A stretch of DNA of 64,000 bases from Lophium mytilinum (taxonomy: Eukaryota; Ascomycota; Dothideomycetes; Mytilinidiales; Mytilinidiaceae), in contig MU004192.1 of the NCBI GenBank assembly GCA_010093605.1, positions 1,253,774-1,317,773 of the forward strand, read 5' to 3'. Made by a program: the position numbers and the translations under genes. The notes beneath the pieces were generated by a model. That model saw nothing but the letters and a program-made list of their open reading frames with translations, was not told the origin of the DNA and ran no database searches. Shown in pieces: positions 29,358 to 64,000 of the stretch; position 1 is the stretch's first letter, and every line of letters begins with the position of its first letter.

Positions 29358-31699
29358 GGGTCACGCTTGTCAACTTGTGTATACGGCATCTGGCCCCTCA
29401 AAATAGACTTGGAGGCTTGGGAGGCGGGCATGCTATTGGCGTTCAGGATTACATTGCGAGGATGAGACTTATCAACACCTACGGAAGCTATCCAATGTCT
29501 TTCTAGCATCCTCAACGGAGAATTATTATATACTCGAGTATGAAGCCCGTTCGAGACAAGATTAGATCTTGCATTCATGGTGCCTACTTGCATTCACTTT
29601 CTAAAAGTCCCATAGGAATCATCCTAAACATCTAGTGTGATACCATTATATATCACGATACGACTCGTACCTTATACGCAAACGCCTAGCCATTCAACAC
29701 CTTGAGCATGTTACATCCTACCTATGTCGTCAGAGGCAGTGCCCTCTAAACTATGTTGATAGCCTGTAGGTAAAGTTATGTTCTAGCCTGCGTCAATTTC
29801 GTCTCCTGTTTGCTCCACACTGATCCCGCTGCGCGAGGTTCTCTAAACTGAGCGACTTGAATGGACAGACAACGCGGTTGTGATTCCCGAGTTACTTTTC
29901 TCTTCGGAACTTCTTTCCACGTTGACCACACTGCTTGAGGTGGTCCATAAGGTTTGAGTTGAATGGAATCAATATAACGCTGTTGGCTGTATATTGCGCG
30001 TCGCTCTTTCTGAGATGATCTCTACGCGAAGCTAACACGTGAGTTTCTTCAAAAGAGTGTCCAGAATTAGCACACGATGTCAACTTCTTAAGTGTGCAGA
30101 TCGTGAGTCGCGTTCCCTAGGACCCCCTTTACAAAGCGATGGCGTTGTTTGATGTGGCCCCATAAGGTCAAATCAAGTGGCAGTGAATGTAACAGTTGAG
30201 ACAGCGCAGATAACGAGCCAGCGATTTGCAGCAGTGTGCCTTGTTGAGAGCGATACTAGGCGTGGCCCCGGGGGACGAAGATCGAAAAGCAGTGAATTTT
30301 AGACTGTGAATTGAAACCGAACTCTTTAGGGGTCATTCTCTATGCTAAACCCGGTGTCTAGAGGGCCTCCACATGTTCACCTCAAGCAGCCTGAAGGTAC
30401 ACGGATGCAGGTTGCAAATCGCGGGTGGGATCTTAGATGCTATTTTCTAGGCTGAACGCAAAGTGTGAGGTGGCCCTGTGAGCGATTAGACCGTGGGCGA
30501 ATATTGTGACCCGGCGTCTGTATAACGAACTATATGTCTTTGCAAAGGTGGTAATAATGTTTGAGTTGGCTCCGTAGGTTCTTTCAGAGTTCCAATTGCT
30601 GTAGATGTTTCGAGCCTAGGAATCGCAGCGCCAGTCCTCAGGGGTTTACTTGTTCGCGAATTTTGGCTTCCATGTAATGCGTGAAGCTGACGATTTAGAT
30701 GGGGCTTTGAAGGTCTTCTGAATGGTATAGGCTCAGCTAGAATAAGAAACGCTCGACTCGTGACAGAAGAGCGTGACCGAATTCAACACGTGTTTCGAAC
30801 CACGAGTACGGCATGACTTAACTCGAACGCCTTACTGGCCGTTTCGAAACAGAAAAGCGCCACGATTTGTGATGTAAAGGACTTCTACTCGCTCTCGTGA
30901 GGTTGTCCACAATGTCGAAGCTTCGTCTGTGACTTGATGGCTCACTGACGCTCAACAACGTCCACAGAGCTCTCTTGCGAGCCAGAAAGCGCGACCGGGC
31001 GGCCCATACTTCTAGGTAGAAGCGCTTAGACAGAGAATAGAAACATCGTCGAGAACAAATCGTCGGCTTCAGTTGTCGCAAGTCGTTAGATGGCTCGTCG
31101 CCCTTGCTCGGGCAAGGCAGCAAGGCGTCACGATTCAGGCTAGAGGTCCAGCCAGGCCAGCCTCCCGCATTTCGCGACACCCAACCACCAACCACCCGCT
31201 TTATCGGCTGCGTTTCAGACGCGCCCGACGCCCCCTGCCCTGAGCTGTTCGCTGGCCGGACCAGGACGATCGAAGCTCAGCGACCACTCGTTGCACACCG
31301 CGGAGGAGGGGCATGGCCTGCAGCGACAGTGAACTCTCCCCGTCTTCTCGCATGTCGTCCGACTCGAGCGCAGCGCACTCAGCGATTCCCTTCTTCAGTC
31401 ATCGTCTGTTCCTAGATCTGCTGCCACTTGAATCAGGCACCGGAACCGTATATGTCTTGTAGGGCTGCTGCGTCACAAGGGGCTTCCATGTGCAGCGCGC
31501 GCATCATTCACTGAGTTGGAGAACGAAGCCTTGCACTACGCGACCGCGACCGCATCTGCGACCCCCAGCCACCTAGAATCGCCTTCGCAATACTAGCAAT
31601 CTCTCCTTCCATCCATTTTCACTGTCCCATACCGCGAGTTCCCGAAGCGCATTACTACAACAGCACTACACGCACGAGGAGATACACACTTCACCACAG
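29358..31699. other. Long intergenic region containing a degenerate tandem array
   Basis: Spacer of 2.3 kb between two rightward genes. It contains the degenerate array at 29880-30960. From about 31100 the sequence becomes C-rich and likely holds the promoter and 5' leader of the downstream membrane-protein gene. No supported coding frame. Confidence 0.5.
29880..30960 (-). repeat. Degenerate tandem array, period about 106-110 bp (array A)
   Basis: A tggccc/tggtcc-type core recurs at about 29942, 30154, 30262, 30362, 30471 and 30576, spaced by about 105-110 bp or twice that. The reverse complement of about 30115-30180 resembles a unit of the 36.6-37.8 kb array: both have a TTA-GGGG block, then CAAAC, then TGTAAA in order. 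Copies are strongly diverged. Confidence 0.55.
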
Positions 31700-33625
31700 A
31701 TGGTCTCCGCCTACAGCACCCACCGCGACATGAGCTCCACCGATCTAACCCCTCAACCCCTCGATCGCTCTCAGCAGTCCCTCTTCGACCACGATATCCC
31801 CTCTCTGTCCGCCTCCCTCGCCGCCTTCGGTCAAGACCCTGAGAGCAGCACCCACAGCGGCTTCTCAACTCGCTCGCCCATGTTCTCTTCCCGATATAGC
31901 GTTGATGAATCGGAGCCTGAGTCCGAGGGGCCGTGGGCGCCACCAGCATGGCAGAAGAGCAATACTGGCTGGTACCGGAAGAGCATCATGAGCGACAGCG
32001 CGATGAGGAGCAGTCCTTCGAGGAGTAGAGGAGCGAGTCCACTGGAAGGAGGCGGTGGAGGTGGAGGAGGAGGCTTCGTTAGTGAGAGGGAAATCACGCC
32101 AAGCCATATTCCGTTGCCAGAGAGTCCATTGAAAGGGTCACCACGGACGAGTCCAGAGCCGGTGGGGCTCGCGGAACAGCAAGCACGGTTGCGGAGTCCA
32201 GAGCATGAAGGGTCCAGAATGCACACACCGGCGTATGTGGGGCAGGAGCAGGAGGGTGGGGAAGGCGAGGACGAACACGGGCATGGTGAGGATCCTGCGC
32301 AGTTGGATGGTTGTGAGTGTTCCCATGCATGCGATTCTTGCGTTTTCGGTGAATGAGACAGCGCTGACTCTGTTTGATAGTTGTGCGGTTTGCGTTTCGT
32401 GCGGAGTCCCTCTTCAGAACCGCGCCGATTGAGGAGAGCCTACAATCTGCATCCAACATGTTCCGCAAAACGATCCACTCTAAGATACGGCTCTTCAGCA
32501 CAATATTCGCACTCTTCTTTGCGTGGTTCCTGTTCCAGCCATGGGACGCGGGATTGGTGCCGGATCTCGCGAATGCGGCGGCGATTGCGACGAGGTTCGA
32601 GCCCCTGATCTATGCGTCGGAGAATGTGATCCCACGATCGAGAGAGCTAGCGGAGAGCAGCATCGCGGTGTGGGATCTGGGAGAGAGTGTGCGCGTCACG
32701 AACATGTCCGCATCGACAACGATCTTGAGCCAACTGGAGTTGCTAAGTGACAGCTTGAAGGTGTTGTCAGAGAAGTTGACGAGCTTCTTCACACATGTAG
32801 ACGGAGATATCGATTCGTGAGTACAGTCAAACTCCCTTCAATCATGCATTACTAATGATACCCAGCATCCTCTTGACCATGGAGTGGGCGCGGCGCGAGC
32901 TTGAATCAATTCATACCCCATCCCAAGGCCGTATGTCAACTGCAATTGGCAACGTGCACTCTGCGCTCTGCAAAGTCGGTGTGCTAGAGTGGGAGGGTCA
33001 GCCCACCGCTGTGGGCAAAGTCGTCAAGGCAATCGTAGGACAGACATCTCAACAGCGCTCCAAAGCGACGCTCGAGCGCACCTTTAACCACCTAATCTCC
33101 ACCCTGGAAGAGAACATCAGCAACGAGATGGAGCGCGCCTCCACGCTCTTCCAGCTCTTTGAAACCGTCGACATCCAATTCCAGCAGCTGCACCGCTCTG
33201 TTGCGCGCGAAGAGGACCAGATGGCGAACGAGAAGGACCAGTTCCTCGCATCACTATGGCGCCGCTCTATGGGGAGCAACCTCAAGCTGAAGAAGTACGA
33301 GAAGAACCTGAAGCTGCTGAGCACGGTGCGCAGCAGCACGTTCAACAACCTCATCGACTTGAAGGAGCACACGCGGCTCATTAGCTCAGTGCAGGAGCAG
33401 CTCGACGGCGCGCGCAAGAAGCTGGTTAGCCCGCTCATCCAGAGCGCGCAGAGCAACTCATTCGGCCTCGAGCATCAATTCACGGATCTCTCCAAGACAT
33501 ACTCGTTCTTGAAGGGGCTGAGGGACACGCAGCGTCACCGCGTCTTACAGGCGCTGTGGGCCGAGCCGAAGCAGCGCGTGGCTATTACGTCGGGCCAAGA
33601 CACGCCCGAACTCGACAGCTACTAA
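31700..33625 (+). CDS. Predicted membrane protein with coiled coil, unknown function
   Basis: Not assignable to a named family, but it reads as a genuine gene of a type seen as a conserved hypothetical in filamentous ascomycetes. Exons 31700-32312, 32381-32816 and 32866-33625 give 602 residues. Residues 1-205 are disordered, Ser/Pro-rich, with a run of nine glycines near residue 120 and acidic repeats. At about 245-265 is a hydrophobic span (FSTIFALFFAWFLFQPW). The rest is helical and charged, with probable coiled coil (ISNEMERASTLFQLFETVDIQFQQL, KLKKYEKNLKLLSTV). Topology would be one span with a long soluble C-terminal domain. Introns are 68 and 49 bp. A second in-frame ATG lies at residue 11. 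Confidence 0.82.
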
Positions 33626-34583
33626 GTACAGTACTACAGTGCCTAAATGTGGCGCATGATGTGTTTTCAGTGTACGGATTAGACAAATAGGTGGCTGGAG
33701 TTCCGGGCGGCTGGTGTTTCGGTGTCACTGTGGCGATTCTTGTTTTTCACGGCATGGTGGCTGGGTCGTTCAGACTCTTGGAAAGGGGCCTCAGGGTACA
33801 TATCGCCCACTGGGCACGTCTTGGATGTTCTTGATAGCTTGGCAAGATGTTTGGCAGGGTGTTCCTGAGCTTGACCCCATTTTCTGATATTTGGCGGTGA
33901 AGTGCCGTAGTGTCGTCTACGTCAGTGCCAGCTTGGACCATAGCAGAGCGCTCATATGCAGCCTCAAACTTGAAATAATAGCGCTTATGCATGCTTCCCA
34001 TGCAATTGGAATATACAAGAAGGGCTTTGGTCCCGCTGACTGACTACATCTTGCTCACTCATTCACTGCTTGCCCCCCCCTCTGCTCGTAATCAGTGCGC
34101 GTTTTCCGATCATCGCGACGTTGAATCTGGCTGTCAGTCCGGTCTGCCGACTACTGCATCGTAGCTGCTTGGCATCGGGGGGCTGTGCAAAGTGCTGTCG
34201 CCAGCATCCAATCAGGGGCACAGGGGCGTCATCGGAGCCAGAGCTCTCCCAGCTGCAGCACCCAGTTCGTTTGAGCAGCTCGTCGGCAGCTTCATCACTC
34301 ATCAACTCTCGCTGCTGCGCCCTCTTCCCCCGCTTCCGTGCCATATCAATTCTCATCCCGGCCGAGATCTTCTTCGCTGTCGGTGCTGTTATCGACCGAA
34401 TCACGCCTCGTTTGATATTCGCGTCGCACACTCTCGCCCAAGGTACTGCACTCCACCGGGCGGCCTGACCCATCCTAGCTTTCCACGAGGACCCGCGGTC
34501 CTGATCCTCCCTCAGGTACATAGCTAGAGCAAAGCCACCCAAGAGTCTGCCCGCCGAGACTTGTCATTTCTACTTCTGCAGCC
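33626..34583. other. Intergenic region
   Basis: Spacer between two rightward genes; upstream region of the Ca2+/H+ exchanger. Opposed open frames at 34063-34542 overlap each other and show no motifs or splice support. Confidence 0.4.
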
Positions 34584-36376
34584 ATGAGTGAGTCCTCGCC
34601 ACACTAGCACCACCACACCCCCATCCCATTCCATCACTACATCAGGCTCTCTTTGTCTACCTACCCACGAAACCCCCCTTCCAAGCATTCTGCGGCTCTG
34701 GGCAGCCGCGCACTGCCAGGCGCAGCACCTCTGTCATCAAGTCAGTCTGACCGATTACAACCTCATGCTTGGCGCTCATTCCGTTGCGCCCCGCCATCAA
34801 CTGGGCACATCTGGAATCTATCCAGCACTGCCTGTACCAAGACCTCTTGGCTAATCAATTGTTCGCCTCGCAGATAATATAAGGAAGCAGTTTCACCACC
34901 ACGGTCGCCATCCTAGCGGCACCCGACCCCCAAGTATGCCACAACCTCCCAACGGCACTGCCGATGAAAACACACCCCTCGTCTCGCACTCAAACGACGA
35001 CGAGTCGCGCTGGTCTAGCTTGCCCAAGTATGTCGCCCGGACTACCTGGAAGACGCTCGCGAGCAACTATGTCAATGTCTTCCTGGTCTTCGTTCCTGCG
35101 GGCATCATCTGCGGTGCGCTGCACGTCAACCCCACGGTCGTCTTCGTACTCAACTTCATTGCGATAATCCCGCTGGCTGCTCTTCTGAGCTTTGCGACGG
35201 AGGAGTTGAGCGCGAAGCTGGGACAAACTTTGGGAGGACTCATGAATGCGACCTTTGGAAATGCTGTCGAATTGATTGTAGGTTTTATCTGCATGTGACA
35301 AATGATTAGATGATGGGTATGGCGCTAATATCAACCTCAGGTATCAATTGTCGCGCTCCGTGAAGGCGAGATCAGGATTGTTCAATCCAGCATGCTTGGT
35401 AGCATCCTCTCAAACATCCTCTTGGTAAGTTATTTGCGCTAGCACAAACCCCTGTGTATTAGGAGCTATACTGATGCCAAATCTCAGGTCCTGGGATGCT
35501 GCTTCCTCGCTGGTGGAATTCGCTATAGAGAATCAACCTTCAATGGCACTGTCGCCAGCACCATGTCCTCGCTCATGGCTGTCGCCAGCGCCTCGCTCAT
35601 CATCCCGGCTACACTATACGCAGCTCTGCGGTCCTCCAAAGAAGAAACCGACAAGAACATTCTGATGCTGTCCCACGGTACCGCCATCATTCTTCTCGGT
35701 CTTTATATCCTATACCTCTACTTCCAGCTTTTCAGCCACGCCGATCTCTTCGATGTGGAAGCACAGGACGGCGAGGATGCTGATGGCCACAAAGACGGCG
35801 AGGTTCTCTCCCCCATCGCGGCCGGCGTCGCTCTCGTTCTCGTCACTGTTCTCGTCGCAGTTTGCGCCGAATACCTCGTTGACAGCATCGATTCCCTTGT
35901 CCAGACCGCGCACATCTCCAAGACCTTCATCGGTCTCGTCCTCCTGCCAATCGTCGGCAACGCCGCTGAGCATGTCACGGCTGTCGTCGTAGCATACAAG
36001 GGCAAGATGGACCTCGCGATCAACGTCGCCATCGGCTCGTCCCTCCAGATCGCCCTTTTCGTCACCCCATTCCTCGTCGTTCTTGGCTGGATCATTCACG
36101 AGCCCATGACACTGCACTTCCAAGGCTTCGAGACGGTCGTGCTCTTCATCTCAGTCCTAGTGGTCAACTACCTGATCCAGGACGGGAAGAGCAACTACCT
36201 CGAGGGCGCAATGTGTATCGGAACGTACGTATATCCCTCATTCTTGAACTATCAACACCCTGCTAACCGTACATTCCAGATACATCATCATCGCGCTCGC
36301 CTTCTATGTCTACCCCGACGACGCCAACGGCAACCTCGGCGGCAACTTCATCGCCAAGTTCTTCGGCACCCAATAA
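34584..36376 (+). CDS. VCX1: Vacuolar Ca2+/H+ antiporter (VCX1/CAX type)
   Basis: Vacuolar-membrane exchanger that removes cytosolic Ca2+ using the proton gradient. Core exons are 34936-35277, 35341-35424, 35488-36224 and 36280-36376 (419 residues from the ATG at 34936). A better 5' end is likely: the four bases ATGA at 34584-34587 join over a 286-bp intron to 34874 and add 22 codons in frame without a stop, giving 441 residues. The two diagnostic alpha repeats are present: GNAVELIVSIVALREGEIRIVQSS and GNAAEHVTAVVVAYKGKMDLAINVAIGSSLQIALF. About eleven hydrophobic spans are visible, with an acidic loop (DVEAQDGEDADGHKDGE) between the two halves. The short C-terminus ends GNFIAKFFGTQ. It converges with Argonaute across a repeat-filled spacer. 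Confidence 0.95.
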
Positions 36377-36629
36377 GGGGTGTCTCCAACCCACATCCTC
36401 GGCGTCCAGCCCTAAATCTCCTTCTGTGTTTTCCTTTGTGGTATACACCTTGTGTTTTCTACCAGAATTTGTGGGGCACGGCGTGCACCCGTTGTACTAT
36501 ACACCATGGCTGGGGCAATCGGTGTGTTTTCTTTGGTTAGGCTTTTTCGGTTGAAAAAGTATGTATATATCACCAGGTGGAGGGGTGGTCTGTAGGCCCT
36601 CTAGGGGGTAATGAACGTGTTAAATGAAC

Positions 36630-37760
36630 ATGTGTGCTCTGGATTGTGACTTTGACGGCGATCTTTATGGTATGTTGGGGGACTTCAGACGGCGGCGTTA
36701 CGGTGGCAGATGGGTAAGCCTTTCGGTCTCAGTTAAAGTCTCTGGTCCTTGACTGGTATCATCGATGCTGCTTCAAAGCGCCTGGAAAGGGGATGTGTGG
36801 TTTACGACATTGGTCTTTTACATCCTGTCTCGGTTAGGTGAACCCAGCACGGCCACCTCAGACGGCGGCATCTACGTGACAAAACGCACCGAATTGGTAA
36901 CGTGTGATTCAAGACCTGCAATCCTTTACATCCTGTTTCGATTAGGCGCATCCGGCGAAGCCACCTCAGACGGCGGCATCTACCTATTAAAACGTCCCGA
37001 GCGGGTGTCGTCCAATTCACGGCCTGCAGTCCTTTACATCCTATCTCGATTGAATTGACGTAGCTAGGCCACCTCAGACAGCGGTATCATCGTTCTAAAA
37101 CGCCTCGAGAGGGCGAGGTCCAAATCACGGACTCGAAACCTTGACATCGTGTTTGCATTAAAACCGCATCGCGAGGCTACTCCAGACGCTGTTATCAACA
37201 TATCAAAACGCCGTGAAAGGAGGATGCCCGAGTTGAAGCCTACGGAACGTGACATCGTATCCTGCGTTTTTCATGGTGTTAGAGGGCTTCAAACGGCGGT
37301 AATTACCGTGCAAAACGTTGTAAAATGGCTCTATTCAATTTGAAGCTTTCAGAATTTGATATAGTAAACTGGATCTTTTTAAAGTGCCAGCGAACCTCAA
37401 ACGGTGGTATTCACTGTGCAAAACGTCGTGAAATGGCTCTATTCAATTTGAAGCTTTCAGAATTTGACATCGTACCCGGAATATTTTCACGGTGTTAGGG
37501 GACTTCAAACGGTTGCATTCACGGTGTAAACAGCGCTGAAATGGCTGCATCCAATATGAAGCTTTCAGAATTTGACATCGTACCCGGAATATTTTCACGG
37601 TGTTAGGGGACTTCAAACGGTTGCATTCACGGTGTAAACAGCGCTGAAATGGCTGCATCCAATTTGAAGCTTTTAGAATTTGACATCGTACCCGGAATAT
37701 TTTCACGGTGTCAGAGGACTTCAAACAATAGCATTCATGGTTCAAAAACTCTGGAAAGGA
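36630..37760 (+). repeat. 108-bp tandem repeat array (array B), about ten units
   Basis: The tttacatcc/tttgacatcg anchor occurs near 36817, 36925, 37033, 37140, 37250, 37358, 37466, 37574 and 37682, a constant step of 107-110 bp. Each unit also has a CAGACGGCGG or CAAACGG-type core and an aaaacg/taaacag motif. The last three units are nearly identical; the left ones are diverged. The period equals 36 codons, so antisense frames stay open across units. Confidence 0.92.
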
Positions 37761-37799
37761 ACCACGAGCAAAGCACAGAGCGTCCTAGTTACAAATAGT

Positions 37800-37995
37800 G
37801 CCCAAAGCGTGACCCCTCTTTGTGGTAGATAGGCCTCAAAGCGTCTACCCCCTTTGTTGTAGATAGTCTACAAAGCGTCTAGCCTCTTCGTGGTAAGGAG
37901 TGTATAAAGCGTCTTATCCACAAACAGCACTAAAAGCACCACATCACAAACAATTCACAAAGCGTCCAGTCACAAAAAGTCCCCAAAGCGTGCAA
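37800..37995 (+). repeat. Short-period array with aaagcgt motif
   Basis: The heptamer aaagcgt occurs at 37804, 37838, 37872 and 37906 (period 34 bp), then near 37932 as a variant and at 37959 and 37985 (period about 26 bp). The first copies share ctttgtggtagat-like flanks. It abuts the 108-bp array and may derive from it. Confidence 0.85.
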
Positions 37996-38313
37996 TCATC
38001 AATCATCAATTCCGTCGCTACTGAGACCCTAAGAGACCACCCATTGTATCGCTATAGCCGCGAAGACCACAAGAAAGGACCCTCTTAGTCCCCTTTTAGT
38101 CGTAAAAAGCACCGCAAACCACCGCTCCCTGTCCCTATCTACCGCATCATCTCGCAGAAAAAGCCACCCATCGTCCGCTTCTTCCGCAAAGGCCACCAAA
38201 AACTCCATAGAACGAGCACGATAAGGCCTAGGTATTGCTTGGAATCGCTCACGATCTCGCATCATGAAGTGGAAAGAGATTCAAAAGCACCTACGCTCTC
38301 GCTTCTTAAACGC

Positions 38314-41300
38314 TCACAAGTAGAACATCGTGTCTTTGAGCGCGGGGTGGACGTCGCGGTGCCACGACGAGGCGTCGAAAGACGCCGAGCCGTCGCCCTT
38401 CAGCACGTTGTGTAGGTACGCGCGGCCTCTCTCGCAGAGAATGTCGGCGTAATAGGCGGGCGGGCACACGCTGACTGAGCGAGTTGCGCGGCCGAATGTG
38501 TAGCACAGATTGTGCGTCTTGTAAGAAATTAGCGTTTTTGGCACGGAAAGGTGGTTGAAAGAAGAAGAGCAAGAAGAAGTACTTACAAGTCTCTGCAATT
38601 GGTCCGCGCCAAGCTTGTTGTCGTCTTTTATGACGACGTAGTGTGCTGGTTTGGACGTGCCTTGGAGGCCTTGGTGTGCGACGAGGAAGAAGTCGAACAA
38701 CCGCTCGCCGGTGACGCCGCGGTCGACGACGGTTCCGGGCGAACAGTTACCAGTTCTGCCGTCAGCGTCTGCAGGCGTTGTGGGGTAGAAGCGCGTGTGG
38801 TGACGCTTTCCGACGACAATGATGGAAACTTTGGGATGTTTCGATGCTGCGCCGTACAACTTGTTGAAAGAGGCCACGAAGGCTGGGTACTCTTGCTCTA
38901 GCACGATGGCGTATTGGCCCTCGGACACGCCATCTCGGTACACGATCACCTTGTCTGGCAAACCTTTGTTCTTTGCGGACCAAAGCTTTAGCCGTTCTGT
39001 GATCATTTCTTCCAGGTCGGACACCATCTCCTGCCGACCACGCTGCGTGCGGAGACTGGCCGGGTATTGGGTGAACTTTGTATCGCAAGAGGCCACGACA
39101 CCGGCGATTGAAGGAGATGTTTCGGAACTTCCGGGCGAAGGGTGGGTGACGTCGATGCCGAAAACAATGGTTCTTGCGTCGAGAGGCTTCATCTCCGCTT
39201 CCGACACGTAGTGGTTCACGCCGCCCTTTTTCAGGTTGAATTTCAACGCCACGTTGGCGAAGTACTGCGCCTGCCCCTTCTCTTTTGAGAACTTCTGTCC
39301 GATGTTGCACACGGAGGGGATACCAAGCGTGACGTCGCAGAGGTATTTGACGCAATCGTAAAGGAAGGCGTTGTCGCTCGGTAGAAGAACGAACAAGAAC
39401 GCCGGCTTTGCGGGGAATGTTCTTAATGCTTGCTCGAGAACGCCCGTGATGGCCTTCACGTTGCGTGACATGAGGTCCGGACTGCTGACCGAAGCAGTCT
39501 TGAATGGCGTTGATTTGCCAAGTTTGACCCCATACCGGCCCAACGTCTCAGAGAAGTCGGCCAGGTACTGATTGGTAGCGTCGGCGCCACCGTAGACAGT
39601 CGGTCGGGACCCCTCGCTGATGACGAGGCAGTTCCAAGAAGGAATGTTCACGCCTTGGAAGAACGGACGAGGTTTGATGCCGTCCGCCAAGTTCCACTTT
39701 CCGTCACGTGGCCTGACCGCATTGGTGGTTTTGTGGTATTGAAGGGAGGGAGGCTGAAGGATGCGTCCGTCCACTGTGAGCATGGAGGCGCTCACCTTGA
39801 TGCCGTACTTCTGTAGCGACGTGTTGATGCCCTGAGACACCGGGTTGATGCCGACCACGTTGAGGCCGGACTCGACAATGGACGTGGCGTTCTTGTCGGG
39901 GCTTCGTGCTGCAAACTCGATCATTGATCGCGTTTGGTTCGGAAGAAGCATCCTCTTGGCCTGCTGGCCTGGAAGAACTTCACAGAGCTCGGCTGGGATC
40001 CACGATGGGTCGGTCCTCGTACCCGTATTCACGACCGGAAATGCGGGAGATTGGAGCTTGATCTGGTGCACTATAGACAAATTAGCAACCAATGTAACAA
40101 CAACATGTACCTCGAGGCCTCCATGGGGTAGGGAAAAGCTTACCTTGTTCAAAGTACGCGGACACAGTCAGACGCTTGGTGGCACCGGAGGCGTCAGTGA
40201 AATCAAACGACGTGTTAGTCGCATTTTGGCCTTTAGCTGACAGATCCGCAATGGTGTGGATCTTTTCCTTGCGGATGGGCCCATTCTTCCCCTTCTTTGG
40301 CTTGCCGTTCGCATCAAGCTCCATCAGATATCGGGTCTTAATGCGCAACTTTCGCGCAAAAGCCGCAATGCGAGCAGACTGTGCTTGATTTGCCGGAGGC
40401 CCGCCGTTGAACTCGGTCAAGAGGTTCATTAGTGGACCCGGCTTGTAGAAGGCACCGGTAGCGACGTTGATGTTGACAATGATCCGACGAACACCAGTCC
40501 GGACGCTGGAGTAGAAGCCTCGTAGGGCCACGAGGCCTTCACCAAGATTGGCCTGGACGAGCTCCGGGTTCGCGAAGGGGTAGAACTTGTTACCTCCGCC
40601 GACCGCATGATTCGCCTTTGAGGCCGGGCCCTGTGAGAGCAGGATATTCAGCGCCTGGATGGTCTCCATACGCAGCGGGTAATATCCGCCACCGCCTTGG
40701 AAAGAAATGTCCTTGATGAGGTCTTCAATGGACACGGTGGGGAGTTCTTCCACCAGAAGCTTCCGCAGGTTCCGCTTGCGGGCGGCGGTGCGCGCTGCGG
40801 GTTCACCGGCTGTGGGAGGAGGCATAGGCTCAGCACCCTCTGCGTGCCAGACAAGGTCGAATGACTGCCGGCCATTGAGTGCCACTTTGTCTGTTGTGAC
40901 GATGATCTGAGCCCCATCGCTTGCGGCGACGATGCCCTGAAATGGTGCTTGTGAGAGAAGCATCTCAATAAGACGCTTCTTCTTCGGCTTCGGAGTGGCG
41001 GTTCCCTCAGGCTGGAAGGCCACGCTGTACCGATAAAGGTACTTCTTGGACTGCTCAGTGGGGGTCAATGGGAAGTAATTGGCCCAAAGGACAATCTTCT
41101 TCCCCAGAGTGCCGTAGCCAGGACGGCGAGGCAGACGGTCGGTGACAGAGAGGTCCGACATTTGGGCGGACAAGTCGAACTTCATTGACGCGTCCTCGAG
41201 CTTCGTGACTTCGGGGTCGGGTTGGGGGAAAGTGCCGTTTCTGGAGCGAAAGCGTTAGCATTGCGTTTCAAGTGGTGAAAGTTACTTACCCAAAGACAGC

Positions 41301-41459: not shown

Positions 41460-41469
41460 TGTGGCCTTG

Positions 41470-46132: not shown

Positions 46133-47873
46133 CTGCGTGTCAGCAAGCGTTCTTCGCCTACGGTGAACGTAGACAGTGATATAGGGAGAGGAAATCGACT
46201 AACAAATAGTGTCTATTCAAAGCCGTCATGACCATAGATGAGGCGAATCGAGGGCAGGATGCCATGCCCGCCATCGCAACATCAAGACCACATGGTTCGA
46301 GGCCGACATAGAGTAAGAGTAAACAGTGCCTTTGTGAGAGCTTGCGCAGTAGATGTATTTCGGAGGCTCAGTGTTTGATGTGTTTGAGTTTCAAGAGTGA
46401 GGATACGGTCTCCCGTGAGGGGAACGTCAATGGTTATAACCATATAGGCGTTATCCGCGATAGCAGGGTTCAGCTATGACCTAGGAGCCTCAGATTCAGG
46501 CAGGCTTCAGAGACGGTGGCTGGCTGAGGCCAAAGCCCTCCGGGCTACGCCCTCGGCCCTCCACGCTGCGCCCTCAGTCTTTGCGATGTGAGCCTTAGGA
46601 TGCCGAACAAGCGTAGAGCGCCAATCAAACCTTCTCCTCAACCTGACATCGCTAGCAGTACCGGCATCAATGCTGTCCTGAGCGGCCTCCGGGCGGCCAC
46701 AAGGCACCTCTGGGAGGCCCGTTGCCTCCCCGCAGACCCACGGTAATCAGGCTGAAGATAATGAAGCATCCAATAACGAGCACTGCCAAGAAAGCCCCTC
46801 CGTGAGGCCTTCATCGAGAACCACTCGATAGCGAGACGTGATGACGACAAGAGGACTGTGTGCATGAGGAAGAGGCCTCCTGGAGGAACAGGGTGGTGTT
46901 AAGAGGTTGACTCGGCTAGGGCTGTACTTCGTACGCAAGGCTAACAACCGCCATGCCTAATACGTATGCTAGTGCAGGTTGGGCGGAATTCACGGTACTC
47001 AGGCATATGAGCGTGGATTATTGGCCAGTTGCTAACCCAGATTTCTAGACTCTTGGTTCGATATTCTAGTCCTCCTGACATTGTCAAACGGTCTGCAGAG
47101 TAGCATAGTCAACGTCCTAATATGGAAGCAGCTAGACCTATTTCGTAAGACCCGATTCACAGCGTCCATATGATTACATCGTACCCCTGATTTCTTGTGT
47201 AGTCCAGGAGCCCCTTCAAGAACTCAATGGGCTTACATTGCTACACCACCGAGAAGCTGATATCAATGCTGTTGAGTATTTCTCCAGACGTTCAATTCAC
47301 AGGGAGGAAACCCTTACATTGTCTTGAAATTTTCTTATAATGGGCAGGAGGGCACCAAAGGTTTGACCAGAAGCACAAAGCTGCAATACCAGTGCACTGA
47401 TGTTAAAGCTGAAGAACGCATTTTTAATACTAAATTAATGACGTTTAGATCTTTACATTATATCTCGAACTTTCTTCATATCTAGGGGCATCACAGACAG
47501 CGTCATTCACATGCAAATGGTCACTATTTCTCGAAGGCTAATGTGGGACCTCTAGAAAGGAACATTGTAGTATTTACAGACATCAAACACTTCGAAGGCC
47601 TTCAAATGCATATACAGATCTGCAAGACGCATGAGAACTCGATTCCATTCTGCTCGTGCATTTAGCACGGCCAAAAGAGCCCCCCAATCTAGCTAGTTGG
47701 TGGTTGTATCCAACTCAGCACCGCAAATTGGCATACACTCAGCCAGAGTTTACCGCACGCAGAAGCTCCATCAAGCTACTCCAGACGGTACCACCCCAGC
47801 ACCAAAACTCCCTCAACACCACCCAATTCACGCCGCCTCGCGGAACATCACCCTACTGCACTCCAAATCTGGC
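46133..47873. other. Intergenic region with degenerate repeats
   Basis: A 1.7-kb spacer. A short G/C-rich tandem (ccctccgggctacgccctcgg-like) is at 46528-46575. The right half holds the degenerate array at 46990-47650. No supported gene. Confidence 0.45.
46990..47650 (+). repeat. Highly degenerate relative of the 108-bp repeat (array C)
   Basis: ttacatcg/ttacattg/ttacatta anchors occur near 47174, 47232, 47312 and 47452, with aacattgta at 47561. The stretch 47480-47520 (ctaggggcatcac...gcgtcattcacatgcaaatgg) parallels the array B core (ttaggggacttca...gttgcattcacggtgtaaa). Spacing is irregular except for the last step of 109 bp. Confidence 0.4.
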
Positions 47874-52894: not shown

Positions 52895-56182
<3,288 letters not shown>

Positions 56183-59100
56183 ATGCTTGTTCGCCTCTTG
56201 TGCTTGGTGGCGTCCGCCGCTACTGCAGCCATTGCAAGCCCCCTTGCGCATCCCCGCGCCGTTGTTGAACGCGGTTCAACCTCTTCCACCGACAGCTGTC
56301 CGGGCTACAATGTGTCCAACATCGTCAAGACCGACTCCTCCCTTACGGCTGATCTCAAGCTCGCGGGACCAGCATGCAATGCGTATGGAAAAGATATAGA
56401 CGCATTGAAGTTGCTGGTCGAGTACCAGACTGGTAAGTCGGGCCTGAAACAAGCACTTGTCTAGCCAGATAGTAACTGTGGCTGATAATCCAACAGAGGA
56501 CCGCCTCCACATCAAGATATCTGATGCCGCCGGTCAAGTCTACCAAGTGCAAGAGTCTGTCCTTCCGCGACCCGACAATGATGCTGTTGGAGCATCTGGA
56601 GCTGCTCTTGAGTTTGATCTGACCGAGAAGCCCTTCTCTTTTAAGGTGAAGCGGAAAGATTCTGGCAAGATACTTTTCGACACGTCAGGACCCGGTGGCA
56701 CGTTGATCTTCGAGTCACAATATGTTCGTCTCCGCACCCAGCTGCCGCAAAACCCCAGCTTGTACGGCCTTGGCGAGCATTCCGACTCCTTTCAACTGGA
56801 GACTCATAGTTACACACGCACGCTCTGGAACGCCGAATCACCGTTCATCCCTAACCATTCAAACTTGTATGGCAGCCACCCCATGTACTTTGACCACCGC
56901 GGCGGCAATGGCACGCATGGTGTGTTCCTCCTGAACTCCAATGGCATGGATATCAAAATCGACAATCCGTCTTCGGGCACTTTCCTGGAGTACAACACCT
57001 TGGGCGGCGTCATCGATCTATACATAGTAGCCGGTCCCGACCCTGTGGATGTCAGCAAGCAGTATGCCGAGATAGTCGGACTACCTGCCATGCAGCCATA
57101 TTGGACATTCGGTTTCCACCAATGCAAGTACGGGTACAATGACACCTTGGATGTGGCTGAAGTTGTTGCAAACTATTCCACAGCCGGAATCCCTCTCGAA
57201 GTCATGTGGACGGATATTAATTACATGGACAAGCGTCAAGACTTCACGACAGATCCCGAGCGTTTCAAGCTGAGCATGATGCGGGAGCTTGTTGACGTAT
57301 TGCATAGCCGTAACCAGCGATATGTTCTAATCATTGACCCTGGAATCCATGTAGCGTCAAACCTCAGCTCATACAAGCGAGGCGTAGACCAAGATGTCTT
57401 TTTGAAGACCGCAAACGACGCCTTATACCACGCCGTCGCTTGGCCTGGCGTAATTGCATATCCGGATTGGCTTGCTCCAACTACTGAGGAGTGGTGGACG
57501 GGCGAGCTTGGTCACGCTTTCGACCCGAAAACGGGCATTGATATCGATGGTGTTTGGTAAGCATGCTTTCTACGAATCAACCTCGAGAGCCGTTGGCGAA
57601 ACTTGACCCAAACTATGTGCTAATGCTTTTTAGGATCGATATGAATGAAGCCTCAAACTTTTGTGGGGATGTAAAATGTGTCCCTGAAGGTAGGATCAAT
57701 TTTGTCTGAAATGGATTCTCACAACATACTAACATGTGTCCAGTGCTTGCCCAGCAGGATAATATCCCACCAGAACCCGCGCAGGCACCTCGGAACGACA
57801 CTGGCCGCCGCATTCCTGGCTTTCCCCAAGACTGTAAGTACGCTAGAACAACATATCAGATGCTCTTTCGTCGGGTTCTCTGAAGTGCTGCTCGAGTCGA
57901 GTTTTCAGAAGCCCCTCAAGCAGTTCCTAAGAACTTCGGCGGCTAAGAGGATTTGATAACTGTTCCACCCATCCCCCTATACCATTCTTTTCTGACCATC
58001 CCCGTTACAGTCCAGCCTCATTCAAAGCGCGACTCCGGAGACGGAATGAAAGGCATCGCGGGCCGCAACCTTCTCAACCCTTCCTACGGCATTCACAACC
58101 ACCAAGGCGACATCTCAAACCGCGCCATCTGGACTAACATCTCCAACTACGACGGTACCGCCCAATACGACACCCACAATTTCTACGGCACCATGTCAGC
58201 CTACACCACCCGCGCCGCTATGCTGGCCCGCCGCCCCACAAAGCGTCCCTTCGTCCTCACCCGCAGCACCTTCTCGGGCGCCGGGCGCCAAGTCGCTCAC
58301 TGGTTCGGCGACAACGCCTCGCTATGGGATCACTACCGCACCTCCATCCAGCAGATGCTGACATTCGCCTCCCTGCACCAGATGCCCATGGTCGGCAGCG
58401 ACGTGTGCGGCTTCAACTTGGACACAACCGAGGACCTGTGCGCGCGTTGGGCCATGCTCGGCGCCTTCCAGCCCTTCTACCGCAACCACGCCGATATTAC
58501 CGCGGCCAAGCAGGAGTTCTACCTGTGGCCGATCGTCACGAAGGCCGCGAAGAAGGCGATTGACGTCCGGTATAAGCTCGCGGACTACATCTACACTGCG
58601 TTGTATAGGCAGACGCAGAATGGCACGCCGCTCGTGTCGCCGCTGTTCTTCGCGTACCCTAACGACACGAACACGTTCGCCATCCAAACGCAGTGGCTGT
58701 ACGGCCCTAGTCTCCTCGTGTCGCCTGTTATGGACCAGAACAGCACGAGCGTCAGCATCTACCTCCCTGACGACATTTGGTATGACTACTGGACCGGTAA
58801 AGCAGTCCGCGGTCACGGCAAGAGCGTCACACTGAACAATCTCGCACTTACGGATATCCCGCTGCACATCAAAGGCGGTAGCATCATTGTCCAACGCGCT
58901 TTCTCGGCTATGACGCTGGATGAGGTCCGCAAGCAGGACTTCAACATCACGATTGCGCCAGGCCTAGATGGGACTGCGCACGGGTCGCTGTATGTCGACG
59001 ACGGGGAGAGCTTAGTGCAAGACCCGCTCCTCGATCTCGAGTTCGACTGGGATGGCGAGAATTTGGTTGGGAGTGGGTATCTTCCGTCGGCTGAGATGCA

Positions 59101-59215
59101 AGTCATGAATGTCCAGATCCTCGACCCGGAGTCTGCGAGTAGTGCGGGGCATAAGCGGGCTGTCAGCGTGGATGGGCCGTGGAAGTTGAGCGAGGGGTTC
59201 AAGTGGAGTCTATGA
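56183..59215 (+). CDS. Secreted GH31 alpha-glucosidase
   Basis: Secreted exo-acting alpha-glucosidase releasing glucose from maltose, starch oligomers or related glucosides. Exons 56183-56432, 56497-57556, 57634-57689, 57744-57833 and 58011-59215 give 886 residues. Residues 1-19 (MLVRLLCLVASAATAAIA) form a signal peptide, followed by a PRAVVER-type propeptide site. The GH31 N-terminal domain contains YGLGEHSDSF. The catalytic nucleophile is the Asp of WIDMNEASNF (about 439), created across the exon 2/3 junction. The acid/base Asp is in HWFGDNASLWDHY (about 586), with GSDVCGF and FYRNH nearby. C-terminal beta domains end YDYWTGKAVRG and YVDDGES. Many N-glycosylation sites are present. An upstream ATG at 56054 would add a long leader lacking sense and is rejected. 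Confidence 0.95.
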
Positions 59216-60079
59216 TTGGGCGGAGGAGTGTGTGAGATCCGGCGACGGATGGGTTTTTGGATGTCAACTACACTGCATCTTCTAGCACTGCTGGATGATG
59301 TGTAGGGTTGGCATTCGGGAAGATTCTGCATATTGCTTGCGCGCAAGAACTGCTTGCTGCTTGCTACCTTTTCTTGGTGCTTGGTCCTGCATATAACGAT
59401 CACGAATTATAGATAAGACCTTTCGTCTTCTCTACCTCAGATATCTGTGTTACTATGGTGCACTTGATTTCATGTGAATTTACAGCTGGTGAATTATGTT
59501 TCTAGGCATTTCGCCACAGAAAAAAGTACTTTAGTACTTAGTTACGTAACGATATACCAGGATAGATATTCACTTCATCATCATTGCGCCCAGCACCGCC
59601 TCATCCCCACCACCTCATTCCCCAAAATCACCAGACGCGGCAACATGATATCCCCAGATATTACATGTGCCCGCGTGCGCTCGTGGTGGTGTTCTACTGA
59701 ACCCATGTCCCATAATGTCGTAGCCGACGACAGCCGCCCCACGCACAGCCAGCTCAGTCTGTGGTACAGGTACTGCGCGCCCACAAATTGCCATACTCTA
59801 TATTTTGCTAGTTGACGTGCGCGGTGCGAGGTGTCGCTGAAGGTGGGGGAGATTGTAAATGCCGCGGGAATAAGGCGGACGATGATGGTATCTGGGGTTT
59901 CCCAAAACCTTCGGGTATTGCGTCTAGCCGACGGGTGTCTGCAGGTGGGGCATCCGAGGCGGAGAGTGTGCCATTCATATGACGGCGGCAACGTGAGCAC
60001 GATAGGGATCGGAGACGCGTTTGTCCGTTTGTCGTTTGTTGTTCTGTGTTATACTGTATCGTATCGGGAGAGGATTGAT
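59216..60079. other. Convergent intergenic region
   Basis: Shared 3' flank of the alpha-glucosidase (+) and NCS6 (-). A 139-codon frame at 59581-60000 (-) begins with GTG and is overlapped by frames on the other strand; it is not supported as a gene. Confidence 0.4.
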
Positions 60080-61496
60080 TCAGTCCGGACCTAGTAACAG
60101 CTCTTGAACACTGTTGGCGACAGTATTGCTACTGGGAGCCGATTCTTCGGGATTGTCGTAGCTGACTTCGATGGAGTTCTTAGGCCTGTTCTTGTTGAGA
60201 CCTTCGAGTAGGACGCAGGCTTTGCAGATTTCCTGGCTCGAGAGGTAGCCACAGCGGGCGCATTGGCCCATGGTTTGCTTAGCAGGCTGCTTGCGGGCAC
60301 CATGAGGAGGTCCCTTCAGCTTCTTCCCCTTCTTACCGCTCACTAGTGGTATAGCGTCCGAGTCTGGGGGGTTTGGGGGCTTCGTGCCAGCTGTTGTAAT
60401 CTCGACCTCCAGACCCTCTTCAGCCGCAACCTCGGTCTGTGTGAGCTGCTTCTCCATGGAAGCCATCTCTCCTCCTGATGTTCGTCCATTGGAGCTCCCA
60501 CAACCACCTTCTTCTTCCTCTACGATTGTAGCGTGCCCTCCGCAGCCATTCCCGCAACTCTCGTTCCCACCAGGCACAAGTTTAGCCATGTCTTCACCAC
60601 TCCGCACAACATCCAGTATGGCACTAGGGCGTACTCGTTCGAGGTTCTTGATCAGGGCGCGAGCGCTGCCTCGGAAGGCTTCTGGCGAGTATAGGCATTC
60701 GGTGCTGAAGTAATCGAGGTTCTTGTGGTGAGCATAGAGCACAATCTCCTTCTCATAGGCGTATTTGAGAGGCTTGCTCCGCTTTATGTTCGTGTGTGAG
60801 GTCGTCTCAGGAGAGGATGGGACAATAGAAGGCGTCGAAGTTACGATTGAAGTCGTTCGAGAGAGTCTGGGTAGGTCTCCACGGAGCACTAGCAGGCGCG
60901 AAGGCCGTCAGCAACCCAGTCTTCCATCCCTGGGACAAAGGAAGGAAGCACTCACAGTTCATCAACACCGTTTCCGCAACATCATCGGCGTTGTGTCCCG
61001 TAACCACATGTCTGACTCCCAGCTTGGCTGCCCCTCGATCCAGAGCCTGCCTCCGGAAGACACCACAGTACGTGCAATTCCCTTTCTTACCAACCTGCTC
61101 CACGACCTGATCCATTGTCCATCCATATAGCTCATCGTAACCCAGTATTGTCAGCGGCATATCGTACTGTTTCGCATTGCGCTTGACGGTCTCGAGGGAG
61201 TCATCCCGGTAACCCTTGATGCCCTCATCGATCGAGAGTAGTATTAGCTCCACACCATAGTCGTATCGCTCGTTGAGAGTCTTCAGCACGCTCGCGAGTA
61301 CTGTGCTGTCTTTGCCGCCCGATGCCCCGATAGCAATACGTTCGCCGCGATGGAAGAGGTTGTTGGTGGTGATTGTGTGGTGGATTTCGGCCTCGAAAAC
61401 GGAGATGAAGCAAGGCTTGCAGAGCTTCTGGTGGTTCTTCGGACGTAGGATCAGTGCCCGATTAGTTTGGCAGACGGCACAGGGAGAGGGTGCCAT
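60080..61496 (-). CDS. NCS6: Cytoplasmic tRNA 2-thiolation protein 1 (NCS6/CTU1)
   Basis: Adenylating subunit of the Ncs6-Ncs2 complex, which thiolates the wobble uridine of Lys, Glu and Gln tRNAs using sulfur from the Urm1 relay. Exons 61496-60956 and 60888-60080 give 449 residues. The N-terminal zinc site is CAVC...CKPC (residues 6-29). The PP-loop ASGGKDSTV lies at about 58-66. CTYCGVFRR (near 142) carries catalytic cysteines, followed by [26 protein letters not shown]; this last motif is built across the 67-bp intron. The C-terminal zinc motif [22 protein letters not shown] is intact. An insert of about 100 residues, Gly/Glu/Ser-rich, sits before it and makes the protein longer than the yeast one (about 360), a common feature in filamentous fungi. 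Confidence 0.97.
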
Positions 61497-62690
61497 GCTG
61501 TCCTTAAATTATTATTTTGGAGGTGGTTGAAGGTGGTGGAGGGGCGGCGCTGAGGGGCGCCTAGGAATTTTGGCTGGGGTCTCAGCAGAGAGCTTTGGTA
61601 CGCGCGAGTCATTGCACGCCGTCATTGTTTCGATACTAAAGACGATATTTTCGCTGCTATTGTGATGATGCTACCATCGGTCTTGTTATCTTAAATCACT
61701 GTCACTGAGACGCGCTGCTGAGTGCTTTCAGGTAATTGGAGGGAAAAGTTCAAAGAGGCATGCCAATGCCGCCGCCAAACGATGAAGGATAGCATTCTTG
61801 AGGACTACGATGCTTTAAGGCATATGTCGCCGTCTCCCTGACTTTTATAGCTATATCCCTCAGCCACTCTTCGCAATTGGAGCAAAAATCCTCGTTTTCA
61901 ATCTCTTTTTGCCCGCTTCAAAGGCTACTACGTGCGAAGGATCAGATTATATCAAGAAGTAAGCAACACCAGCCGAAACCCTCTAAATATGCGGTTGACC
62001 ATCTGCAGCTACGCTCATAAAGCTTTAGATCCTTCCCACCTTAGCATCGCGGATGCTCCGGCGGACACTCCCGCCCTCCCGCCTCCGAAAGGTCTCGACC
62101 AGACTCTCATCCACCTGCCTTCTCCAGGCATTGCTCGACTTCAGCCTCCATATCAAGAGCCTCTGATGCCGCAGTCTCGACCAATGCTAGCGTTTCTGCG
62201 ACATCGAGCCTTACAGAAACATATATTCGGTCATAAATCTGGTAGAATCGCCAGGGACACTCGGAATTCCGCTCTGTTGAAACACAGCAATCCCTCCACG
62301 GCCTTGTCGGTAGGGCAGTCTTCGAGTGCGGCAGAACGGCTATAACTGCTTCAAGGCAATTCACTGACGCCGGCGGAGAATACCGTCGAGCGGAACGACG
62401 CATGTGGCTATTACCTAGCACAAGCTCATCGGTATACTACACATGAGTCAATCGCGAAGGGCGCAGGAGGATTAGTCAGAACGAAAGCTGTTCGGTGGCC
62501 CCTGGTCATTATAGAGTTAGGGCTTACAGTGGTTCCATCTTGCTGGTTATACAAGTAGCACCGAACTGCGGCATTCTTTCATACAACATCAAGGAAGCTT
62601 CCCCAATTCAATTTCCCAGACAGAGTTTTGAAACCATTTTCCATCTTCTACTGCTTTTGTAACCTGCTCGGTGCTTCGAGAAGTATCGAC
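61497..62690. other. Divergent intergenic region
   Basis: Upstream region shared by NCS6 (-) and the acetyltransferase gene (+). Opposed open frames at 61932-62345 and 62107-62421 overlap each other without motifs. No repeat recognised. Confidence 0.4.
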
Positions 62691-63730
62691 ATGGCTTCTG
62701 TCACCCCAAACTCGGAATATATTGTGCGGCCTGCAAAGTCTCTCGAAGAAGCACGCGACTTTTGGTGGCCTCAAATGCAGAAGCTGCAGTGGGTATGATC
62801 AAGTTTTATTAGGAAACTACTGTTCTGCTCTGGTAACTAGACTCTCAATAAGGCAAGACGCTAACAAACTCTCAGTCCCGCGACTTCAATGACGGCCAGA
62901 CCCACTACACGGTCGCAGGAAAAGAGGGCTGGCTAGTTGTGCAATCCAGAGACGACGAAACGGCTGAGGGCTGCATCGTCCCATTTGTCTACGCCAACAG
63001 CACCGGTTGGGTAGGCTTCTTCATCGTAAACGAGCAGCACCGCGGCAAAGGATGGGGCGCGGCCTTGTTCAGATCTCTTCTAAAGTTTTATGCCGACCAC
63101 AACACCGGTATCGTTGGACTCGACGGTGTCGCTGAGCAAGTGCCGACGTACGAGCGCAGGGGCTTTGTTACGAAATGTCCCCTAGTCCTCATGGTGCGTC
63201 CATCGGCGAGTGAGGCACCCTTAAGCAAGGCGGTCTTTGAACCGGAAGAAGGCGAGAAGCTGGTAAATCTCCGTGAGGTTCCGCAGAAGCTCCTAGTTGA
63301 GAGCGACCTCGCCCACACCGGATTCGAGCGCCCCAAACTGTGGTCCGACGAAGCATTGTTCTCCCGTCCTGACGTCTACGGATACGCCCTCGTTTCCTCC
63401 ACAGACGCAAACAAACTCCTTGGCTGGGTTATGGTCCGTCGAATGGAGCACGGGCACCGCTTTGGACCTCTGCTCGCTGATTTGTACAAGCAAGCGTCCG
63501 TTCTCCTGAATAAAGCAATGCAGGATATCGAAAGTTCAAAGGGCAGCATGGTGGCAGAGATATTCTCCCCGAATCCTGAGGGTAGGAAGGTCTTTGAAGA
63601 GCTTGGCTGGGTGTGGGGTGGTGTTGATTATCATCGAATGTGGCTGAATGGGAAGGCCCCAAAGGAGCAAGATGTCGGCGGACGAGGGGAGAAGGGAATG
63701 TTTGCAATCTTCGACGCGGCCGAGGGATAA
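62691..63730 (+). CDS. GNAT-family N-acetyltransferase
   Basis: Predicted acetyl-CoA-dependent N-acetyltransferase; the substrate is unknown. Exons 62691-62792 and 62876-63730, joined over an 83-bp intron, give 318 residues. The N-terminus (EYIVRPAKSLEEARDFWWPQM) is a typical GNAT first strand-helix. The acetyl-CoA pyrophosphate loop is QHRGKGWGAALFRSLLKFY at about 88-106. DGVAEQVPTYERRGFV follows, with the Tyr and the 'YERRGF' signature. A second, weaker GNAT-like half begins near residue 215 (YGYALVSSTDANKLLGWVMVRRMEHGHRFGPLLAD) and ends FEELGWVWGGVDYHRMW, so this is a tandem-domain GNAT, as in many fungal and bacterial relatives. No signal peptide. Confidence 0.9.
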
Positions 63731-63739
63731 ACGGTCTGA

Positions 63740-64000
63740 GTATGATAGGGTCTCATAATTGCACACTCTCTTGGCCGACTGGCTACCTTTCTGCCAGGGC
63801 CCTCCTCACAGTGGTGTTCATCGAACAAAGGTCCACCCGAGAATGCGAACGATGGCAAGCTTCACATATTGCACTTCCTCTTGGCCGACTAGCTACCTTC
63901 CTGCCAGGGCCCTCCTCGCAGTGGTATCTATCAAACAAAGATCCACCCGAGAATGCGAACCGGTAAGCTTCGCATATTGCACATCCTCTTAGCCGACTGG
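63740..64000 (+). repeat. Tandem repeat array, period 108-110 bp, running off the window (array D)
   Basis: The cttggccgact anchor is at 63770, 63880 and, as a variant, 63988. Units share gccagggccctcctc and ccacccgagaatgcgaac. The core ggccctcctcgcagtggtatctatcaaacaaag resembles array B near 37065 (ggccacctcagacagcggtatcatcg...aaaacg). The array starts directly after the acetyltransferase stop. Confidence 0.88.

Follow-up and report, generated by a model that had tools for sequence, protein, structure and literature searches.

The window, the whole 64,000-bp stretch of Lophium mytilinum DNA analysed here, encodes proteins with recognised eIF2-beta, Argonaute and fungal-rhodopsin domains, which fit a filamentous fungus, and contains four repeat regions designated A to D. 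A 5.8S rRNA comparison aimed at placing the species gave no match above threshold among the 39 candidates scored of 1268. Array B (36630..37760, plus strand) has a period of 108 bp by standard tandem-repeat search (TRF) and unit alignments, with a lag-108 identity of 0.62 (z 8.5). Its units start at 36817, 36925, 37033, 37141, 37249, 37356, 37464, 37572 and 37680, and further, more decayed sequence lies upstream of them. Array D (63758..64000, plus strand), also found by TRF, consists of 110-bp units beginning ~28 bp beyond 63730, where a GNAT open frame ends, and extends beyond the window edge as more family units followed by 107-bp B-type units. Array C (47000..47650, plus strand) comprises diverged units spaced by ~140 bp (lag 140, z 4.7), the best of them at 47452-47553. 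Region A (29880..30950, minus strand) is a cluster of decayed family fragments in inverted orientation, with weak matches near 29903-29945, 30058-30083, 30128-30189, 30408-30477 and 30539-30570; lag analysis gave a best lag of 85 with a z of only 2.6, and hence no clear period. The period near 108 bp that an earlier note ascribed to all four arrays therefore belongs to B and D, and not to C or A. Among the four, TRF reported only B and D because divergence is so high.

The kinship of the arrays is hidden at the level of plain DNA similarity. Queries with A and C each matched itself alone, and a query with two B units matched array B alone; B matched itself and one place on contig C13, and D matched itself, its continuation and 62 bp on contig C16. 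We then used a profile of the nine array B units and, for every array, compared its score over the full length with the scores of 400 dinucleotide shuffles. No shuffle reached the score of region A on the minus strand (12.9 bits; best shuffle on either strand, 5.5), of array C on the plus strand (12.3 bits; best shuffle, 4.6) or of array D on the plus strand (6.7 bits), the margin for D being narrow because its best shuffle scored 5.8. The plus strand of region A yielded no score, so the earlier reading of A as inverted holds. Individual matches to this profile in A, C and D were weak (E 0.05 to 9.4), and an E of 8.9e-12 for array C, obtained with a different profile that had already absorbed the C unit in question, is not independent. 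From dispersed elements, with window sequence excluded, we built a second profile; it recovered array B on either strand and region A on the minus strand (0/400 shuffles each) but failed to back C (146/400) or D (109/400). The proposal of one family, which the earlier note would have surrendered had A, C and D scored no better than shuffled sequence, thus stands for all three under the B profile and falters for C and D under the second. Overall, assignment of the arrays to one diverged family is supported.

Conservation within the family centers on a 17-bp core, GGCCACCTCAGACGGCG, present exactly at 36851..36867 (plus strand) and again at 36678 in the decayed sequence before the array B units, with inexact copies at 36959, 37067, 37175, 37282, 37390, 37498 and 37606. 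At up to two mismatches, the window holds nine plus-strand cores and zero minus-strand cores, all inside array B. Across the genome, 637 places match at up to one mismatch, versus 61 for a reversed control. Of 12 pairs of neighboring exact cores, 8 are spaced by 108 bp, and direct core pairs 106-109 bp apart occur at seven loci besides B, with one further pair at 119 bp. The genome-wide search that had been suggested was positive, with the spacing near 108 bp recurring. Family copies are non-coding and worn, number in the hundreds, and lie scattered between genes, built round this well-preserved motif.

Position relative to genes was evaluated with a coding model at 59 of 79 loci. Locus centers were non-coding in 58 of the 59, compared with 73% of random window positions, which together with the genome-wide core places bears out the earlier view of short arrays at many gene spacers rather than at one place. 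The zero coding score of arrays A-D themselves is circular, because the background of the model included them. No fixed placement relative to genes was seen among the 59 loci: predicted coding strands to the left and right were ++ at 8, -- at 10, -+ at 5 and +- at 4, the remaining 32 having no call on at least one side.

Evidence for block copying comes from the three-unit stretch B3-B4-B5 (37009..37317, plus strand), which recurs on the minus strand at C13:518056-518364 with 71% identity (BLAST E 1.8e-32). The three C13 units match B3, B4 and B5/B6 in order (77, 63 and 66%), and the block was therefore copied whole; its edges are abrupt and, by eye, free of inverted repeats. The middle C13 unit favors B4 only slightly (63% versus 60% for B8), and a tree supports this pairing only weakly (0.36). 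Adjoining units were duplicated locally, and tandem periods of family units fall at 108-110, 140, about 150, about 205 and about 225-235 bp. A classical satellite, with long homogeneous arrays at centromeres or in heterochromatin, is not what these arrays resemble, as they comprise ~2 to 11 units, often strongly diverged, on several contigs.

The core also occurs in dispersed elements that we call F1. The F1 consensus of 293 bp, derived from 31 aligned stretches at 30 loci, has 17-bp terminal inverted repeats (TATCCCTTGGCCCGTCG / CGACGGGCCAAGGGATA) and TA at both ends, a candidate target-site duplication. Genome search, with 40 of 56 candidates scored, yielded at least 48 matches, the query locus among them; many were 82-89% identical and had common ends, and sequence outside the inverted repeats was unrelated across the 30 aligned loci, several of which have one end missing. 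The terminal repeat occurs at 38 places versus one for the control. Nine pairs span 211-299 bp and a tenth about 440-460 bp; no pair 0.5-10 kb apart, as an autonomous partner would have, was found among those 38 places at up to one mismatch. F1 elements are thus short, non-coding, multicopy and bounded by terminal inverted repeats, as MITEs are, and their interior is tandemly expanded at C8:633 kb and C12:1237 kb. The ends of two further element types, F2 and F3, were read by eye from few copies, and no clear target duplication was seen by eye for F2. Within the window, F1 ends were absent at up to four mismatches, and the four matches to F2-like ends were nowhere paired round an array, the nearest lying ~570 bp from region A; arrays A-D thus lack flanking terminal inverted repeats of the F1 and F2 types. 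Repeat-induced point mutation was unsupported as the cause of divergence, given F1 stretches with 292 C>T plus G>A changes versus 224 A>G plus T>C, and CA changes not above CG.

The core additionally terminates a second module, in which two inverted motifs have outer ends 90 bp apart. A degenerate pattern for this inverted pair gave 62 genome matches and 0 in the control, merging by strand into 53 elements on 20 contigs. Their spans were 88 (40 elements), 87 (8), 96 (1), 98 (3) and 102 (1), forming two classes ~10 bp, or one DNA turn, apart; no inverted pairs with gaps of 82-112 were found. The best box lay at 90 bp in 55 of 84 tallied best positions. Across 22 non-redundant modules, spacer agreement was only 46%, versus 87% for the core. 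The two motifs do not keep the pairing that a hairpin would need: position 7 of the box shows C opposite A in 26 of 55, and position 6 in 30 of 55. These counts are not a random sample, because loci were chosen by core or F1 similarity, and a palindromic module can register in them on both strands. The module sits inside the ~290-bp MITE-like elements, is common to elements with different ends, and also forms tandem arrays of about 150-235 bp; at a single locus, C2:2288 kb, 90-bp modules, three 108-109-bp units and D-type units lie side by side. Within F1 copies, core and box have accumulated change more slowly than the remaining sequence (transversions in 13 of 1053 versus 265 of 6950 cells, p 3e-6, with counts rebuilt from rounded rates and cells not independent), a difference that could reflect use by the host. 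Coding repeats (108 = 36 codons, 90 = 30 codons) were rejected: whichever of the six frames of the 90-bp stretch is read, 11 to 21 of the 22 modules contain stops, and the spacings also include 106, 107, 109 and 140 bp.

The sequence comparisons suggest that the arrays are probably remnants, now decayed and amplified locally, of a superfamily of short, MITE-like, non-autonomous DNA transposons. A transposase, or another dimeric DNA-binding protein, would have recognized the inverted pair, and such recognition would account for the retention of motifs and spacing around a drifting interior. Insertion of elements may have seeded the gene spacers, unequal exchange, slippage or circle-based amplification may then have built the tandem arrays, and the old nests would now merely decay. 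The earlier note had suggested that the arrays may be a lineage-specific element of unknown mechanism; the range of mechanisms can be reduced, because this core recurs both inside MITE-like elements bounded by terminal inverted repeats and inside a block copied whole. Copying of a block of diverged units followed by local duplication also shows a route by which satellite-like arrays reach many gene spacers. Counting against the MITE-like reading are five tandem periods, unlike the outcome of simple MITE insertion, the absence of F1 ends beside A-D and of an F1 end pair 0.5-10 kb apart that would mark an autonomous partner, the unclear F2 duplication, the merely slight preference of the middle C13 unit for B4, and the slower change of core and box within F1.

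An alternative that we consider unlikely is that the inverted pair is a putative binding site used by the host (a chromatin boundary, a site of silencing nucleation or a CENP-B-box-like element), captured by several mobile elements and now under host selection. Retention of motif and spacing over a drifting spacer, the two spacing classes one helical turn apart, the slower change of core and box within F1 and the sharing of one module by elements with different ends all agree with such a site, but transposon ends give the same pattern, and placement relative to genes is inconsistent. It is doubtful, too, that the units are the central repeats of non-autonomous rolling-circle elements (HINE/Helentron-like) that spread arrays as blocks. 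The copied three-unit block, abrupt at its edges and without inverted repeats visible by eye, is compatible with that idea, as are different flanks around shared central units, reported for oyster Cg_HINE (PMC7492417); in contrast to Helentrons, which have subterminal repeats and a 3' hairpin replacing terminal inverted repeats, F1 bears terminal inverted repeats and TA at both ends. A structured RNA gene family or hairpin RNAs we reject as very improbable: nine 138-base inverted-pair stretches fold at -31.6 to -46.8 kcal/mol, values without a shuffle control, but Rfam gave zero gathering-score matches in the window and five loci, 16 aligned 108-bp-type units yielded no consensus structure, and partner bases do not covary, as the C opposite A above illustrates. 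Independent, unrelated minisatellites, alike by chance or composition, are scarcely credible, since the weak by-eye alignments of A and C, the near-noise individual B-profile matches in A, C and D and the failure of C and D with the dispersed-element profile are set against the B-profile scores that no shuffle attained, the excess of core places over control, the genome-wide recurrence of near-108 spacing and the ordered block, and the idea is already refuted for B, C13, C2 and the continuation of D.

A literal literature search with six core or end strings of 13-14 letters, blind to broken lines, figures and supplements, returned two papers, on mammalian systems to judge by title and abstract opening, which we judged chance, and no title or abstract opening among the papers listed in searches on MITEs, tandem arrays and satellites described this repeat family. 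Returning to the MITE-like superfamily, its design is best read as akin to MITEs, HINEs and bacterial REPINs. Fungal MITEs, like F1, are short, non-coding and multicopy, with terminal inverted repeats and TA ends; in Mycosphaerella graminicola, TA duplications are reported for 8 of 13 MITE families (PMC4522978). Unlike those elements, several end types here share one internal module, which also forms tandem arrays without recognized ends. In Crassostrea gigas, Cg_HINE and scattered satellites are described as similarly short satellite-like arrays genome-wide, with flanks and central repeats combined modularly (PMC7492417, PMC8268682), but the oyster elements are reported as Helentron-type, whereas F1 has terminal inverted repeats. 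BrickBuilt of Porphyromonas gingivalis is reported as a MITE enclosing a minisatellite, always intergenic; it differs in being bacterial, with a 23-bp unit and 19 copies in one strain, and its abstract does not mention an inverted-pair module (PMC4596501).

Bacterial REPINs are described as two inverted 16-17-bp motifs whose commonest spacings are 71 and 110 bp, with a less conserved spacer, occurring extragenically as singlets and ordered tandem clusters (PMC3116915). The module described here likewise consists of two inverted short motifs at a set spacing (90 bp), with a less conserved interior, in intergenic positions, 40 of 53 having one length and 8 being one base shorter, and singlets and ordered clusters again occur; it differs in belonging to a fungal genome and in lacking kept base pairing between the motifs. 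More speculatively, and with little confidence, the 90-bp module with its two 17-bp sites at fixed spacing may be a eukaryotic counterpart of REPINs that itself replicates. On this view, several transposon families differing in their ends would have carried it, it would have given rise to tandem arrays with five or more periods, and one dimeric protein, either a transposase that survives or one that was domesticated, would still read it at hundreds of spacers. Two motifs fixed 90 bp apart around an interior free to drift predict a dimeric DNA-binding protein, and if a host protein still binds, hundreds of spacers in this fungus would have a regulatory or chromatin site in common.

The 17-bp core motif common to the repeat family, GGNNACYTCARACGGNG, occurs with at most one mismatch at 324 + 313 places genome-wide (43.18 Mb in 24 contigs, C12 containing the window) versus 34 + 27 for the reversed pattern; among those listed, 100 places, all exact, span contigs C1 to C16. 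Neighboring exact cores 94-124 bp apart form 12 pairs, with none in the control, and are spaced at 108 bp in eight cases and at 106, 107, 109 and 119 bp (the last on C10) in one each. Two pairs fall in array B (window 36.63-37.76 kb) and ten at eight other loci on C2, C4, C9, C10, C16, C18 and C23 (two), bearing out the proposal of the earlier note that short arrays occur at many sites. A 5.8S rRNA search of the assembly returned none at threshold (39 of 1268 candidates scored), and rDNA may be missing, withheld or overlooked.

Arrays A (29.88-30.95 kb), B, C (47.0-47.65 kb) and D (63.758-64.0 kb) had been described as a single family with a period near 108 bp and with A inverted. The period held for B and D, with tandem-repeat periods of 108 and 110 bp and autocorrelation at the same lags (z 8.5 and 7.3), but not for C (lag 140, z 4.7) or A (no clear lag). 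Using a profile built from nine array B units, matches at E <10 in the window outside B were found in A (minus strand), C and D (plus), at 47773 just right of C, and as two strays at 58429 and 13195. When whole-array scores were compared with 400 dinucleotide shuffles of each array, A minus (12.9 versus a best shuffle of 5.5), C plus (12.3 versus 4.6) and D plus (6.7 versus 5.8) each exceeded all 400, consistent with one family and an inverted A. Beyond array B, this profile also matched three C13 units (E 1.5e-14, 3e-14 and 6e-12) and, immediately beyond the window edge, units in which array D continues (2.4e-7 and 1.5e-4 for the best two). A second profile, derived from dispersed elements and free of window sequence, supported relatedness for B (0/400 shuffles on both strands) and A minus (0/400), but not for C (146/400) or D (109/400). 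Overall, the two-profile shuffle tests and profile matches argue that the family is real, with A and C as decayed members and D as a diverged branch linked to the family mainly via its continuation beyond the window. The dispersed-element profile also matched window 61752-61814 on the minus strand, outside arrays A-D (E 0.019, versus 0.55 for the best match among ten random 64-kb control sequences), perhaps one more decayed fragment.

At many loci the core is paired with an inverted copy, CACCGYYTGAGG..., termed the box; core and box form the right and left ends, respectively, of a 90-bp module. This inverted-pair pattern with gaps of 51-81 gave 62 genome matches (control 0) and with gaps of 82-112 none; merging both strands of palindromic copies left 53 elements on 20 contigs, spanning 88 (40), 87 (8), 96 (1), 98 (3) or 102 bp (1). 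Spacings of 87-88 and 96-98 bp form two classes about one DNA turn apart, the longer comprising 4/53. Among extracted loci (103 distinct core sites), the box lay exactly 90 bp from the core in 55 of 84 tallied best positions. Agreement across 22 non-redundant modules was 87% for the core, 65% for the box and 46% for the spacer (shuffled 25%); module length is retained as the interior drifts. A peptide product was rejected because in any given frame 11-21 of the 22 modules contain stops, and an RNA product because box-core pairing is not kept. Taken together, these features point to a pair of protein sites with fixed spacing.

A search with one inverted-pair locus returned 48 matches including the query itself (40 of 56 candidates scored), many 82-89% identical with ends in common. 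The consensus of 30 aligned loci defines the ~290-bp F1 element, with TA at beginning and end and 17-bp terminal inverted repeats that are perfect at consensus level, several aligned loci lacking one end; sequence outside the repeats is unrelated between loci. The F1 end occurs at 38 genome places (control 1), which include nine pairs spanning 211-299 bp, one of ~440-460 bp and none 0.5-10 kb apart. F1 can be filed as MITE-like, with a putative target duplication; arrays A-D, for which no ends were found, cannot. The inner module also occurs within other outer arms, determined by eye, namely F2 (CAGGGTTYGTTGAACAA) and F3 (CTAGGTAGGGAAAAAGTGGCA). A 216-bp element at C20:425691-425906 has F1 ends and just one member of the inverted pair and by eye appears to be an internal deletion derivative. 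At C5:1043.3-1044.0 kb an F2-like module comes within ~45 bp after an F1 terminal repeat, the elements adjoining one another. Core and box transversions affected 13/1053 cells among F1 stretches versus 265/6950 in the rest of those stretches (p 3e-6, the cells not being independent), and this slower change leaves room for host use.

The F1 interior lies in tandem at C8:633 kb and C12:1237 kb, showing an element growing into an array; beside the former (C8:633.7-634.2 kb) is a different repeat, with GATACCACTGCTTGAGTGCCGCTTTTGCAACC and a near copy ~230 bp apart. In another array, at C12:1486.8 kb, units mostly recur every ~205 bp and each contains one inverted pair; at C13:515 kb the unit spacing is 224-235 bp. 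The three C13 units matched by the B profile parallel successive array B units in order, namely B3 (77%), B4 (63%, a slight preference over B8 at 60%, with low tree support of 0.36) and B5/B6 (66/65%), share only 47-52% identity with one another, and lie in a 309-bp stretch that aligns to B unbroken at 71% identity with abrupt edges, which argues that the block was already heterogeneous when copied. Local unit duplication is seen in B7/B8 (98%), two C2 units (84%) and two D-continuation units (75%). The C2:2288 kb locus combines, side by side, D-type units (assigned by eye), two 90-bp modules and three 108-109-bp units, and D-type and B-type units are likewise adjacent beyond the window edge.

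Window genes include Argonaute, a Na/Ca exchanger, eIF2-beta and a fungal-rhodopsin domain, which suggests a filamentous fungus. Locus centers were non-coding in 58/59 cases versus 73% of random window positions under a simple codon model, which predicts all orientation combinations of flanking coding sequence. Array B sits between the 3′ ends of the Na/Ca exchanger (+) and Argonaute (-) open frames (window 35443-41254). About 35 bp past it is a separate tandem array of 34-bp then 26-bp CAAAGCGTCTACCCCCTTTGTGGTAG-like units (window 37795-37998), and a motif scan of extracted loci was positive only in four loci, all covering array B. A GNAT open frame ends ~28 bp before array D starts, so some units may lie in transcribed 3′ untranslated regions.

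The best-supported account is a non-autonomous DNA transposon superfamily, with an inferred, unseen mover. Its end-like inverted motifs would be read by a transposase, and elements would be seeded into gene spacers, either individually or in blocks, then multiply on site and finally be left to decay. In design the family is closest to MITEs. It also resembles bacterial REPINs (PMC3116915) in having inverted doublets of fixed spacing and tandem clusters that are ordered, and oyster Cg_HINE elements (PMC7492417) in its scattered satellite-like arrays with interchangeable flanks.
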